From: an uncultured Veillonellaceae bacterium | GTDB taxonomy: Bacteria > Bacillota > Negativicutes > Selenomonadales > Selenomonadaceae | Direction: 5' to 3' | Assembly: GCA_902773295.1 (NCBI GenBank) | Contig: CACYDT010000002.1 | Coordinates: 1-37,058, forward strand | Length of the DNA stretch: 37,058 bases | Shown: positions 3,430 to 29,279 of the stretch, piece after piece | Numbering within the stretch: position 1 is the first letter of the stretch | Layout of the letters: each line of letters starts with the position of its first letter | Translations under genes and position numbers: made by a program | The notes under the pieces: generated by a model | Seen by the model: the letters and a program-made list of their open reading frames with translations, nothing else | Database searches by the model: none | Told to the model about the DNA's origin: nothing

Positions 3430-3627
3430 TCAATCATACGTCTCGATTCCTGTCACTTGCACGGGCATTCTCCCCCATGCTTTGCCCGCCATCGGCTTTG
3501 TCCTGGGAATCGCTTCCCTGTTTTGACCGATTTCTTTCGACCGGGCCAGCCGAGAGGCATCCGCTGACATGCTCGACAACCTCTTCCTCGTCCTCTCAGC
3601 AGGATTTCGCTGCTGAGAACCAGCGCT
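3430..3627 (-). promoter_or_regulatory. glmS ribozyme (glucosamine-6-phosphate riboswitch)
   Basis: Read on the minus strand, the leader has the cleavage-site signature A|GCGC (A at 3627, G+1 at 3626). A paired arm follows (CTCAGCAG...CTGCTGAG), then GAGGAAGAGGTTGTCGAG and AGCGGATGCCTCTCGGCTGG. The last block closely matches the conserved core seen in Bacillus glmS ribozymes (GGCGGATGCCTCCCGGCTG). The 3' domain (GGGAAGCGATTCCC and GATGGCGGGCAAA onward) extends to about 3430, and the glmS ribosome binding site follows. Family knowledge: glucosamine-6-phosphate acts as a coenzyme for self-cleavage and the cleaved mRNA is degraded, giving feedback control. The exact 3' boundary is approximate. 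Confidence 0.9.
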
Positions 3628-3701
3628 AAGGCACTTGCCTTTTCCGTAAGATTCCGTCCCTCCCTTCTTCATGCAACAGGAATATTCAAAGACACATGCG
3701 T

Positions 3702-15308: not shown

Positions 15309-15460
15309 CCAAAAAGACCTCTCTATCTATAATAGAGAGGTCTTCGCTATCCCGTCTCATCTTATAGGCAGATACCTAAAGGAATTGGCACCGTTTTGGC
15401 AAAGCCAAGGGTTGCCGCAGCTTCATCGGGCCATTCCCTCTGCTGCTCTGGATGAGTTCC
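15309..15460 (-). promoter_or_regulatory. SAM-I (S-box) riboswitch with intrinsic terminator
   Basis: The minus strand shows P1 CTCATC (15456-15451) paired with GATGAG (15361-15356). The conserved core segments AGAGGGAATGGCCCGATGAAG-type, CGGCAACC and GGTGCCAATTCC lie in the correct order. The expression platform is a 13-bp hairpin AAGACCTCTCTAT/ATAGAGAGGTCTT (15344-15314) followed by TTTTT, ending 38 bp before metK. Family knowledge: SAM binding stabilises P1 and favours the terminator, so metK is shut off when SAM is plentiful. Confidence 0.96.
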
Positions 15461-25580: not shown

Positions 25581-26468
25581 TTACATTCCCTTCACCATCT
25601 GCTTCAGATATTCTTTGAACGGCTCCCCAAGATCTTCCCTGCGCAAGGCAAACTCTATCGTCGCTTTCAGGAAGCCGAGCTTATCTCCCAGATCATAGCG
25701 CATCCCTTCAAAATCATAGGCATACACCACATCCTGCTGCGCGAGAACCCGCAATGCATCCGTCAGCTGGATCTCCCCGCCCTTGCCCGGCTGGGTTTTC
25801 TCAAGGAGCTCAAAAATCTCCGGTTTGATAATATAGCGCCCCAGCACGGCCAGATGGCTCGGAGCCTCTTCCATAGTAGGCTTCTCTACCATATCGGATA
25901 CCCGCATGAGCCGGTCATTTTCTGTTGCCTGCCCCGCAACAATCCCATAAGATGATACCTGGTCATCGGGAACATGCTGGCACCCGAGAACCGACCCGCC
26001 GGTAGCCTCATAGATCTCAATCAACTGCTTCAATGCCGGTTTCTTGGGATGATAGACCACATCATCTCCCAAAAGCACCGCAAAAGGCTCCTCCCCCATG
26101 AAAGCCTTCGCGCAAAGAATGGCATCCCCCAGCCCTCGCATGTAGCGCTGCCTGATATAGTGGATATTGATATCCGCCGTCTCCCTTACGATTTTCAGGA
26201 GATCCTTCTTTCCCTTTTTCTCCAGCTCCATCTCCAGTGCCGGTGCAGAATCGAAGTAATCCTCGATGGCTCTCTTGCCATGTCCGCTGATGACCAGGAT
26301 TTCCTCGATACCGCTTTCCAGTGCTTCCTCCACGATATACTGGATGGTCGGCTTGTCCACAATAGGAAGCATCTCCTTCGGTGTCGACTTCGTTGCCGGC
26401 AGGAACCTCGTCCCATAGCCTGCCGCAGGAATAACAGCCTTCCTTATTTTCTGCATGTGCATCCTCAT
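25581..26468 (-). CDS. galU: UTP--glucose-1-phosphate uridylyltransferase
   Basis: It makes UDP-glucose from UTP and glucose-1-phosphate for polysaccharides and glycolipids. The nucleotide-binding N-terminus KAVIPAAGYGTRFLPATKSTPKEMLPIVDKPTIQYIVEEA is fully conserved, and LLGDDVVYH and VEKP motifs follow. The length is 295 residues from ATG 26468, which overlaps the thiE stop by 4 nt (ATGA) with AAGGA upstream. Two further in-frame ATGs lie within 12 nt, so the exact start is open. The long frame upstream of 26468 is inside thiE and is not coding. Confidence 0.95.
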   Translation of the reverse strand: MRMHMQKIRKAVIPAAGYGTRFLPATKSTPKEMLPIVDKPTIQYIVEEALESGIEEILVISGHGKRAIEDYFDSAPALEMELEKKGKKDLLKIVRETADINIHYIRQRYMRGLGDAILCAKAFMGEEPFAVLLGDDVVYHPKKPALKQLIEIYEATGGSVLGCQHVPDDQVSSYGIVAGQATENDRLMRVSDMVEKPTMEEAPSHLAVLGRYIIKPEIFELLEKTQPGKGGEIQLTDALRVLAQQDVVYAYDFEGMRYDLGDKLGFLKATIEFALRREDLGEPFKEYLKQMVKGM

Positions 26469-27175
26469 CCTTTCTTCCTTCCGGAATGTTCCATTTTCCA
26501 TGTATCCGCCAAGTCCCTGGCAGCAAGTCCGGGATCTGCGGCACCTGCCACTGCGGATACGACAAAGAACCCATCCACGCCGGCTGCCGCAAGCGCAGGA
26601 AGGTCTCCTGCCTTCACACCTCCGCCAACCACTACGGGGCGAGGGCTGCAGGCAGCAAGCTCTTTCAGCTCCTCCAGGCTGCGAAGGATCACATTGCCAT
26701 CCTCGTCCATTCCGCAATCCGGCTTTGTTGCCGTTTCATGCAAGGGACCTGCGCCAAAATAATCGATATCCGATACGTCCACATTCCTGACGTAGTCCAG
26801 CAAATCCACCGTCCTCGCGGAAAGCCCGATCACAGCCTGCTCCCCCAGATACTTCCGGCAAACGGCTACGGGAATATCGCTCTGCCCCACATGGATCCCA
26901 TCCACTTTGATTCCCATGTCACGGGCCGCCAGCACGACATCCAGCCGATCATCCACCAATAACGCCACCTGTCCCTGTTTTCCCTGGGAGGCAATTACAT
27001 CCGCAACATCCCTTGCCAGCTCTATGAGTTCCCATGCAGATGCCACCTTGGAACGTACCTGCACACAGGTAAACCCCTCTGCCACTGCAGCGCCTGCAAT
27101 GTCCTTCACGGGACGGCCGAGGGTATTTTCCGGTCCAACAACCAGATACGACGATATGTCAAATACGTTCCTCAT
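26465..27175 (-). CDS. thiE: Thiamine phosphate synthase
   Basis: The 236-residue TIM barrel joins the thiazole and pyrimidine halves of thiamine. Visible family features include the pyrophosphate- and substrate-binding segments LLVDDRLDVVLAARDMGIKVDGIHVGQSDIPV, GLSART, DYFGAGPLHETATKPD, and VVVGGGVKAGDLPALAAAGVDGFFVVSAV. Start MRNVFDISSYLVVG (27175) has CAGGGGG upstream; a frame open to 27217 is rejected. No TPP riboswitch is present upstream. Instead a large structured RNA with a terminator ends 32 bp before the start codon, with no promoter evident between. Confidence 0.92.
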   Translation of the reverse strand: MRNVFDISSYLVVGPENTLGRPVKDIAGAAVAEGFTCVQVRSKVASAWELIELARDVADVIASQGKQGQVALLVDDRLDVVLAARDMGIKVDGIHVGQSDIPVAVCRKYLGEQAVIGLSARTVDLLDYVRNVDVSDIDYFGAGPLHETATKPDCGMDEDGNVILRSLEELKELAACSPRPVVVGGGVKAGDLPALAAAGVDGFFVVSAVAGAADPGLAARDLADTWKMEHSGRKKG

Positions 27176-27206: not shown

Positions 27207-27252
27207 ATCAAAAACAAACGACAGCCACTTGATTCTTCTCCAAGCGGCTGTC
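27207..27252 (-). terminator. Terminator of the structured RNA, ahead of thiE
   Basis: A 12-bp stem (27252-27241 with 27231-27220, one G-U pair) and a 9-nt loop are followed by GTTTGTTTTTG on the minus strand. The thiE start codon is 32 bp further on. Confidence 0.8.
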
Positions 27253-27540
27253 ATGGCACACTATTCTTTTTCATACAGAATTCTTCACCAAATGCAGGTT
27301 TTCTTTTCTCTGCAACCCATCATCGCTTGGTTTTCGCTAGGCGTTGCAAAACGCTGTGGCAGCTCCCGTTCTCGTCACCCGAAGTGACCGCCAGCGACGT
27401 CTTATGAACTGCTATTGGAAGCACAGACCCTATACAGGGATTTTCCAATCCGACTAAAAACCTGTAAAGCCGAACTGGTTTCTTGCAAGGACTCATAACC
27501 CGGATTTACCTGTTATCAAGCCCCATCGGACTCTCCCCCT

Positions 27541-27603
27541 TTACATGATATCATGTCGGTTTGCAACTGAAGATGCCACCCATTTGCTAGCATTATCATT
27601 CAT
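27541..27603 (-). CDS. Possible 20-residue leader peptide within the structured RNA
   Basis: ATG at 27603 is preceded by GAGGGAGGG with 8 nt spacing, an excellent ribosome binding site, and opens MNDNASKWVASSVANRHDIM-stop. The start lies in a perfect 14-bp palindrome (TCATTCATGAATGA) and the end in another (ACATGATATCATGT). A 6-codon frame (27526-27506, after AGGGGGAG) and a 58-codon frame (27496-27320, MSPCKKPVRLYRF...) follow. Translation of any of these is unproven, and the sites may simply be conserved RNA structure. Confidence 0.3.
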   Translation of the reverse strand: MNDNASKWVASSVANRHDIM

Positions 27604-27631
27604 GAATGACACCCTCCCTCGACCTAATTCT

Positions 27632-27660
27632 ATAATACCATAAAATCTGATAATTGGCAA
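27632..27660 (-). promoter_or_regulatory. Promoter of the structured RNA
   Basis: On the minus strand TTGCCA (27660-27655) and TATTAT (27637-27632) are 17 bp apart, placing the start near 27625. Confidence 0.65.
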
Positions 27661-27698: not shown

Positions 27699-29087
27699 TC
27701 AATGATGGCGCACAACCTCAAACCGCCAGAGCTGAACCTTTTCATCCGGACGGATATTTCCCTTCTTCCGGGCAATGGAAATCTGCTGCTCCACCGTGTC
27801 TACCCCTGACAAGTCCGGCAGCAGGAGCCCGCGCCGCCCTCCGCATTGGACAATAACCCCATAGCGGCGCACATCAAGATCTTCCGGGGAATCCACAGGC
27901 TCCGGTTTCCCCAATACATCCACACTGTAGACCAAATCGGAAAGCTCCTCCGGCTGAACCGGAGAAAACCTCGGGTCACGCATACCCGCTGAAACGGCAT
28001 TGTACAGGATCTCTTCGGCCAAAGAGTCTTGCGTAGGCTGCGTCGTTCCAATGCAGCCTCTCAGCTGCCCATCCTTTTTCAGAGATACAAAAGCGCCTGC
28101 CTGGCTCTTCATGAGTTCCTCCGGCAAGCCATCCGGAAGCTTTGCATAGCTCTTTGTTCTCACAAACGTCTCCAAGCTCATGCGTGCCAGCCGGACCACT
28201 GCATCCTCGTTCGCCTTGCGCTCTGCCATGCGCCTCTGGTGACGCTCTTCCAGCTGCTCCCCGAAATCGCGCGAACTGTCCTCCCCCATTGGCTGTATCC
28301 AAACAACGCCATACCCCACGCCGAAGGGGCCCTCATAGGAAACAGCCTCCGTTTTGACGTTCTTTCGATCCATCGCTCCCGCCATGATCCAGAAAGAGCG
28401 CAAACCGCATTCAGCCGCGCCTTCTGCCAGTTCCGCATCCATCTCCAGCAAAGAAAGGAAATCCCCGGTCCCCAGCGCCCGCATGGCCAGTTTGTCAAAC
28501 TCCGGCCCCTCCTTTGCAAAACCGTAAGGCCCGTCCTCCTTGAGCTTATGGGAAAGATCTCCGCTGGCAATCAAAAGCACCCGCCGCCCCAGTTCTTCCG
28601 CCACTTCCGCAATATGCCTGCCAAGGGCGTAATGATCCCGCGCCGGAAGTCCCGACAAGCCTATGCGCACCACCTTGCAATCCAGCAGCTGATGTTCCTG
28701 CAGGAAACGCAAAGGAATCAATGTGCCATGATCCAAAGCGGGATTGCGCTCCCCTGCTGTCCCTGCCGCAAGGAACGCACTCCGGCAATGGCTTGAAAGA
28801 GCCCTGACGAATTCTTCATCATATTCTGCCCGGAGTTCCACCTCCGGCGCACGGAATTGGGAAAAATCTCCCCTTGCCCCTTTCCCCGGGGAAATATGGA
28901 AGTAATCCGCATACATAACAGAATGCGGGCTTGTCACCACAACCGTGTCCGGCTGCAGAACAGCGGCGCGTTCCATAACCGTACGATAAGCATCTATGGT
29001 CTTTTGTATCTTCCTCTCTTCCCCATGTCCCACTTCCGGCAGGATGATGGGAGGATGAGGAACAACAACGGCTGCAACAATCGACAT
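27699..29087 (-). CDS. AmmeMemoRadiSam system protein: MEMO (B) and AMMECR1 (A) domains fused
   Basis: In this 462-residue protein the N-terminal about 270 residues are a MEMO / class III extradiol-dioxygenase-like domain (VVVPHPPIILPEVG, VVTSPHSVMYADYFHI, LIASGDLSHKLKEDGPYG). The C-terminal about 180 residues are an AMMECR1 domain (GAFVSLKKDGQLRGCIGTTQPTQDSLAEEI...MRDPRFSPVQPEELSDLVYSVDVLGKPEPV...RRGLLLPDLSGVDTVEQQI). Both are parts of a conserved three-component set whose third member is a radical SAM enzyme, which is not in the window. The biochemical role is unresolved. The start Met (29087) has AAAGGGGG upstream; the open frame to 29267 is rejected. It is followed by the structured RNA region. 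Confidence 0.9.
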   Translation of the reverse strand: MSIVAAVVVPHPPIILPEVGHGEERKIQKTIDAYRTVMERAAVLQPDTVVVTSPHSVMYADYFHISPGKGARGDFSQFRAPEVELRAEYDEEFVRALSSHCRSAFLAAGTAGERNPALDHGTLIPLRFLQEHQLLDCKVVRIGLSGLPARDHYALGRHIAEVAEELGRRVLLIASGDLSHKLKEDGPYGFAKEGPEFDKLAMRALGTGDFLSLLEMDAELAEGAAECGLRSFWIMAGAMDRKNVKTEAVSYEGPFGVGYGVVWIQPMGEDSSRDFGEQLEERHQRRMAERKANEDAVVRLARMSLETFVRTKSYAKLPDGLPEELMKSQAGAFVSLKKDGQLRGCIGTTQPTQDSLAEEILYNAVSAGMRDPRFSPVQPEELSDLVYSVDVLGKPEPVDSPEDLDVRRYGVIVQCGGRRGLLLPDLSGVDTVEQQISIARKKGNIRPDEKVQLWRFEVVRHH

Positions 29088-29111
29088 ACCGATACCCCCT
29101 TTATTGATATG

Positions 29112-29150
29112 ATACGAGAGACTGTGGAAATTTGCCGCAGTCTCTCGTAT
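29112..29150. repeat. 16-bp inverted repeat in the 5' region of the MEMO/AMMECR1 gene
   Basis: ATACGAGAGACTGTGG (29112-29127) and CCGCAGTCTCTCGTAT (29135-29150) pair over 16 positions with one T-G, around AAATTTG. It lies 25 bp before the start codon of the minus-strand gene, in the divergent intergenic region (29088-29279), and is a candidate operator or leader hairpin. The rest of this gap is AT-rich, with a TATAAT near 29183 on the plus strand. Confidence 0.6.
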
Positions 29151-29279
29151 ACCTTGGGCAGAGAAAATTTCCTGCTCACGAGTATAATACGTGATTTTAC
29201 GGGAAACTCCTCTTTCACTACCGGAAAAATCGTGATAATCTATATCATGCAAATGCAAAACAACCAAGGAGGCATCCCC

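Follow-up and report, generated by a model that had tools for sequence, protein, structure and literature searches.

A modular structured RNA of Selenomonadaceae carries a dead-end mini-ORF behind a strong Shine-Dalgarno sequence

Within a 37,058-nt stretch of DNA from an uncultured Veillonellaceae bacterium, hereafter the window, the region upstream of thiE encodes an RNA that firmly belongs to a family of structured RNAs absent from Rfam. The RNA is modular, combining a covarying hairpin with a GCUAGC loop, a core composed of a Shine-Dalgarno (SD) sequence and AUG-GGN, and an intrinsic terminator. On the evidence of sequence comparison, an independent gene location, covarying hairpins, a mini-ORF of the form SD-AUG-Gly-(X)-stop and the GCUAGC apical loop are all conserved. 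The dead-end mini-ORF came as a surprise, having no place in the original prediction made for this locus. While the family is firm, its mechanism is something we infer, and with somewhat better than even confidence we read the product as a regulatory RNA that stands on its own and engages ribosomes at this mini-ORF.

The original prediction had described a structured RNA equipped with a promoter and terminator of its own, and the minus strand between positions 27660 and 27218 indeed presents a promoter followed by a highly stable fold and a terminator (Table 1). The same kind of promoter is also found upstream of homologues. Folding of the minus-strand RNA (27640-27215) gave -138.3 kcal/mol compared to -118.5 kcal/mol for shuffled sequences (z -3.55; 0 of 100 shuffles as stable), whereas the plus strand reached a z score of only -1.17, which shows the proposed minus-strand orientation to be right. 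In addition to this z score, the assignment of the RNA gene is based on a homologue in a congener (G001) and on a match to R1, a covariance model of the family, at 27447-27596. The region had also been said to contain no conventional gene. This holds for the 58-codon frame, which we rejected as a gene because it lies inside an insert missing from G001; it does not hold for the tiny SD-AUG frame at 27541-27506, which is conserved.

Table 1. Features of the RNA locus and its flanking genes (window coordinates)
Feature	Position	Strand	Description
Promoter	27632..27660	-	TTGCCA 27660-27655, 17-bp spacer, TATTAT 27637-27632; TG before the -10
RNA gene	27218..27625	-	~408 nt; start inferred ~7 nt past the -10, end at the terminator
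Hairpin module	27572..27614	-	Covarying stem P1 with palindromic GCUAGC loop; alignment-free covariation, window copy included
P1 arms and loop	5' arm ~27614-27602; 3' arm ~27585-27572; GCUAGC loop 27591-27586	-	
CCGACAUG element	27544..27559	-	Small hairpin CAUG-AUAU-CAUG in the window
Core AAGGGGGAGAGUCCGAUGGGGC	27520..27541	-	Strong SD, conserved spacer, AUG-GGN
Mini-ORF	27506..27526	-	AUG GGG CUU GAU AAC AGG UAA (MGLDNR*), six codons
Lineage-specific insert	27280..27519	-	~240 nt, core to terminator; missing from G001; holds the 58-codon frame 27320-27496
GGUGACGAGAACGG	27366..27379	-	Two mismatches to the loop conserved in terminators of type B homologues
Intrinsic terminator	27218..27254	-	15-bp stem and T-run
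thiE	26465..27175	-	Downstream of the RNA in this genome only; probable start ATG 27175-27173
Upstream protein gene	27699..29267	-	Precedes the RNA in G001 as well; true start probably well within the frame

The RNA falls outside Rfam, as the original prediction had anticipated for several classes; its suggestion of a HEARO or raiA identity finds no support there. A permissive scan of the region returned chance-level matches only, and none of the homologous loci scanned matched an Rfam family at the RNA. The scan of the whole window picked up two ordinary elements elsewhere, both well over the cut-off: a SAM riboswitch at 15354-15458 (minus strand, 90.8 bits) and a glmS ribozyme at 3478-3638 (minus strand, 83.3 bits). 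The family is not described in the main text of any large structured-RNA survey that we examined. A phage origin was rejected, a scan of viral contigs having yielded two matches, neither of which resembled the RNA.

The RNA has homologues in related genomes. In a DNA search of relatives, G001 matched both ends of the region without ~240 nt of the middle; its RNA is ~200 nt long and lies next to the same upstream gene as in the window, which we take to be AMMECR1-like. Searching with this shorter form gave weak matches in other genera, of which those centred on the core AAAGGAGGGGAGUCCGAUGGGCC each lay within an RNA of like kind, complete with promoter and terminator. The core pattern occurred in 45 of 380 genomes of the class, Selenomonas ruminantium, Mitsuokella multacida and M. 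jalaludinii among them, compared to a single match for the reversed control pattern. Paralogues are common, often two per genome: six of the seven core-carrying genomes searched whole had two copies, the G001 record alone having one. By our count, R1, which was built from type B copies only, detects the family in 52 of 189 genomes of the window's family, across 11 genera (E <= 1e-5). Excluded from the family are the weak R1 matches L195-L197, L201 and L209, which were mainly driven by the terminator or had no recognizable core.

Type A RNAs carry the GCUAGC hairpin upstream of the core; type B RNAs have an AAGCC hairpin followed by GCCGACAUG, and no GCUAGC. The two look different, yet the type B-only model finds most type A copies at E values of 1e-6 to 1e-9, as well as those of G001 (1.2e-7) and, more weakly, the window (0.0028). 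The latter two copies combine GCUAGC with CCGACAUG, an element that recurs 15-25 nt upstream of the SD in type B copies. Most copies measure ~180 nt. The form in genus g9 is longer, roughly 550 nt, its core, GCUAGC hairpin and terminator being read by eye, and the window copy is likewise a long variant, owing to its ~240-nt lineage-specific insert and longer ORF. Upstream of type B promoters, a conserved CAGAATACATAAAA...TCTGAAAA block sits just 5' of TTGAC (for example, in L043, L054-L058 and L061) and is a possible operator or UP element.

Related patterns also turned up at other loci. Core-pattern matches in Clostridia were not counted as family members, since most are the usual kind of strong ribosome-binding site that serves a protein or a short ORF. 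Nine of these loci (L078, L079, L082, L088, L095, L101, L102, L105 and L110) show ORFs of ~15-28 codons, mostly with MG[QHR] starts, behind AGGAGG-type extended ribosome sites and in some cases with a terminator-like hairpin directly after; they are possibly a separate class of tiny genes. Four loci of genus g52 in family f15 (L024, L027, L028 and L029) hold RNAs of larger size whose two related cores flank an ORF of 14-16 codons; this ORF is conserved in length, divergent in sequence and ends just before the second core.

The core AUG lies 8 nt 3' of the SD and is read as AUG-GGN. SD:anti-SD pairing has a median energy of -13.5 kcal/mol in the cores versus -7.9 kcal/mol at the best starts of the window's long ORFs, calculated with the general bacterial anti-SD because no 16S rRNA 3' end turned up in the host's fragmented assembly. 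Among 57 divergent copies, 48 reach an in-frame stop at codon 3 or codon 4, compared to 5 of 57 for each other frame; these representatives are <85% identical and nonetheless related, so the 48 are not independent events. All 11 stops at codon 3 are UAG; the 37 at codon 4 are UAA, UGA or UAG. Because stop codons and positions are thus mixed, many separate frame-keeping changes would have been needed. The products seen include MG*, MGP*, MGQ*, MGR*, MGH* and MGY*. Their second codon is always Gly, written with all four Gly codons, and the third residue is one of seven (H, P, Q, R, Y, F or T), which argues that the peptide is not the point. Note that AUGGG was part of the search pattern, making its invariance partly a matter of ascertainment; the stops were not. 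In L198, an 8-nt duplication has left a second AUG that restores MGR*. Cores also occur in tandem, one to three per RNA: g15 has two, G024 has three, and every one of these opens an MGX* frame of its own; the G024 loci L038 and L075, reading MGR*, MGT* and MGR*, have the most mini-ORF modules seen. The window copy is exceptional in its six codons and in its weaker SD (AAGGGGG). As a translated minigene would require, SD spacing, start and a stop within two to three codons are under selection, and across the copies compared we conclude that selection has kept a frame of two or three codons behind a strong ribosome site.

The surrounding structure is conserved as well, with compensatory stem changes evident when cognate and shuffled arms are compared. 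Since MAFFT alignments of type A placed the stem out of register, covariation was tested alignment-free, from the pairing energies of cognate and non-cognate stem arms. For P1, every cognate pair was the best in its row and column among eight divergent type A representatives including the window (permutation p 5e-5). The type B 5' domain covaries too (p 0.002), as does the stem of the g9 GCUAGC hairpin (p 5.6e-4), although the latter lies ~250 nt 3' of the core. The proposal of a structured RNA thereby gained both homologues and covarying stems. GCUAGC occurs at 0.09 per kb across the fetched loci, RNA copies counted, and is present in nearly all type A, double-core and g9 RNAs, on the 5' side, in the middle or on the 3' side of the core. 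With the hairpin located beyond the core in g9 and between the cores in double-core RNAs, the module moves and the loop stays fixed. GCUAGC is mostly unpaired in predictions and partly paired in several type A copies. One loop, GGUGACGAGAAAGC, is common to the terminators of type B and g9; it is invariant in many copies and, in a survey of 41 genomes, had exact matches confined to this RNA family. AUGGG is under structural constraint too, since part of it pairs in many copies with CCCAU or CCAU further downstream.

How might such an RNA work? In our preferred reading, ribosomes would initiate at the very strong SD and stop after two to three codons, so that they cycle at a fixed spot and the identity of the peptide is unimportant. 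Their occupancy may act in cis: it may prevent the core hairpin from closing and protect the RNA against nucleases, or fix the RNA in one selected conformation. The structured remainder may act in trans, possibly as a dimer formed through the self-complementary GCUAGC loops. Ribosomes cycling at the mini-ORF would make the product a regulatory RNA engaged by ribosomes rather than a metabolite switch for thiE. In favour of this reading we count the stop-codon signature, the strong SD, the tandem cores, the covarying stems, the recognition of type A by the type B model and the variable neighbours; against it we count the six codons and weaker SD of the window copy, the partly ascertained and structurally constrained AUGGG, and the lack of GCUAGC in type B. 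There is precedent for effects of such short frames: strong-SD two-codon minigenes can inhibit translation, and the two-codon mini-ORF of axe-txe is reported to act in cis, possibly through mRNA stability (PMC8708949). A bolder version, which we hold to be doubtful, sees an RNA machine in which one to three dead-end mini-ORFs capture cycling ribosomes and GCUAGC loops dimerize the RNAs, giving a ribosome-titrating or ribosome-sensing particle across Selenomonadaceae.

The gene neighbourhood bears on whether the RNA instead controls what lies downstream, as the original prediction of a riboswitch or attenuator for thiE implied. Counted from the likely ATG, which is supported by the orthologue in congener G002, thiE begins 42 bp after the terminator rather than the 32 bp first given. 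As predicted, no second promoter is visible in this gap, and read-through into thiE is possible in this one genome. The RNA of G001, however, faces a convergent gene and has no thiE, and in G002 the thiE orthologue (69% identity) follows thiM in a thiM-containing operon without the RNA; a thiE-specific switch is for these reasons excluded as the role of the family. A thiamine-related riboswitch controlling thiE, contradicted by this congener comparison, is hardly credible, considering also that no TPP or other Rfam aptamer was found, that most copies have no nearby thi gene and that we saw no conserved location directly upstream of thi genes. In its favour are the adjacency in the window and L210 in G010, a g9 RNA with a thiM-thiD pair on the other strand, no more than ~3 kb away, a proximity that is probably due to chance even though the window copy, too, is next to a thi gene. 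More generally, translation of the mini-ORF could set the balance between termination and read-through into whichever gene follows, be it thiE, guaB or a DUF362 gene. The promoterless gap before thiE would suit such a cis-acting attenuator, as would the recurrence of a DUF362 gene downstream of type B (g4, g11, g17, g18 and g23) and of guaB downstream of type A (g3 and g17), these names being assigned from sequence. We nonetheless judge it unlikely: guaB seems to be served by a TTGACA promoter of its own past the terminator, copies L014, L021, L043 and L064 face convergent genes, the downstream genes, which include a potA-like gene in g3, have no pathway in common, and the thiE link is broken within the genus. 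Its own promoter and terminator, together with varying neighbours, are what a free-standing sRNA would show.

Among trans-acting alternatives, translation of the two to three codons could itself be the output, tying up ribosomes, initiator tRNA or the tRNA of the last codon. Phage lambda bar minigenes are the model here, and repeated initiation, drop-off and re-initiation would slow global translation under some condition. Two codons, a strong SD and UAA are the features reported to make minigenes inhibitory (PMC8708949), and the short frame, very strong SD and tandem copies resemble them, as the unconserved third residue would allow. However, the final sense codon differs widely between copies (G, P, Q, R, H, Y, F or T), pointing to no single target tRNA, and the elaborate conserved structure with its GCUAGC loop is left unexplained; we consider this reading rather unlikely. 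Quite improbable, in our estimation, is a base-pairing sRNA that uses the invariant GCUAGC or CCGACAUG single strands as seeds for mRNAs, with the mini-ORF incidental or protective only. An own promoter and terminator and conserved unpaired stretches are consistent with it, but the stop-codon signature is not accounted for, and GCUAGC shifts around the core and is missing in type B.

The family has partial counterparts among known systems. The two-codon minigenes of axe-txe (mg2), the LEE1 leader and lambda bar show the same AUG, one or two codons and stop behind an SD, with ribosomes that terminate as soon as they have initiated; those reported belong to mRNA leaders or phage transcripts, whereas here the unit is a module of a free-standing structured RNA, in up to three copies. 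Dual-function sRNAs such as SgrS/SgrT and RNAIII likewise join a structured regulatory RNA to an SD and an open frame. Unlike in these, no peptide is conserved here, the third residue being free while length and stop are kept. OLE, ROOL, GOLLD and raiA are also independent transcripts with conserved covarying architecture; the present family differs in being smaller and modular, in its SD/mini-ORF core and in having no Rfam match. OLE, ROOL and GOLLD are described as forming homo-oligomers (PMC12286853), and by analogy GCUAGC might allow oligomers here. Like most copies of the family, 6S RNA is an independent transcript of ~180 nt, yet it has no mini-ORF; this identity was rejected, true 6S RNA (RF00013) lying elsewhere, at G000:C168 and in all 25 relatives searched. 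Several GGA motifs in or near loops recall the Csr/Rsm sponge RNAs, but a CsrA sponge was likewise rejected, csrA not being found in the RNA carriers G012, G091 and G092 (Mitsuokella-type) and G024.

Taken as a family, these RNAs occur in Selenomonadaceae of the rumen, the gut and probably the mouth, and elements of this sort are missed by gene finders and RNA searches alike. They offer evolutionary evidence of selection on an open frame of two to three codons within a structured RNA, and they make testable the idea of a non-coding RNA that would work by ribosome initiation without a peptide output.
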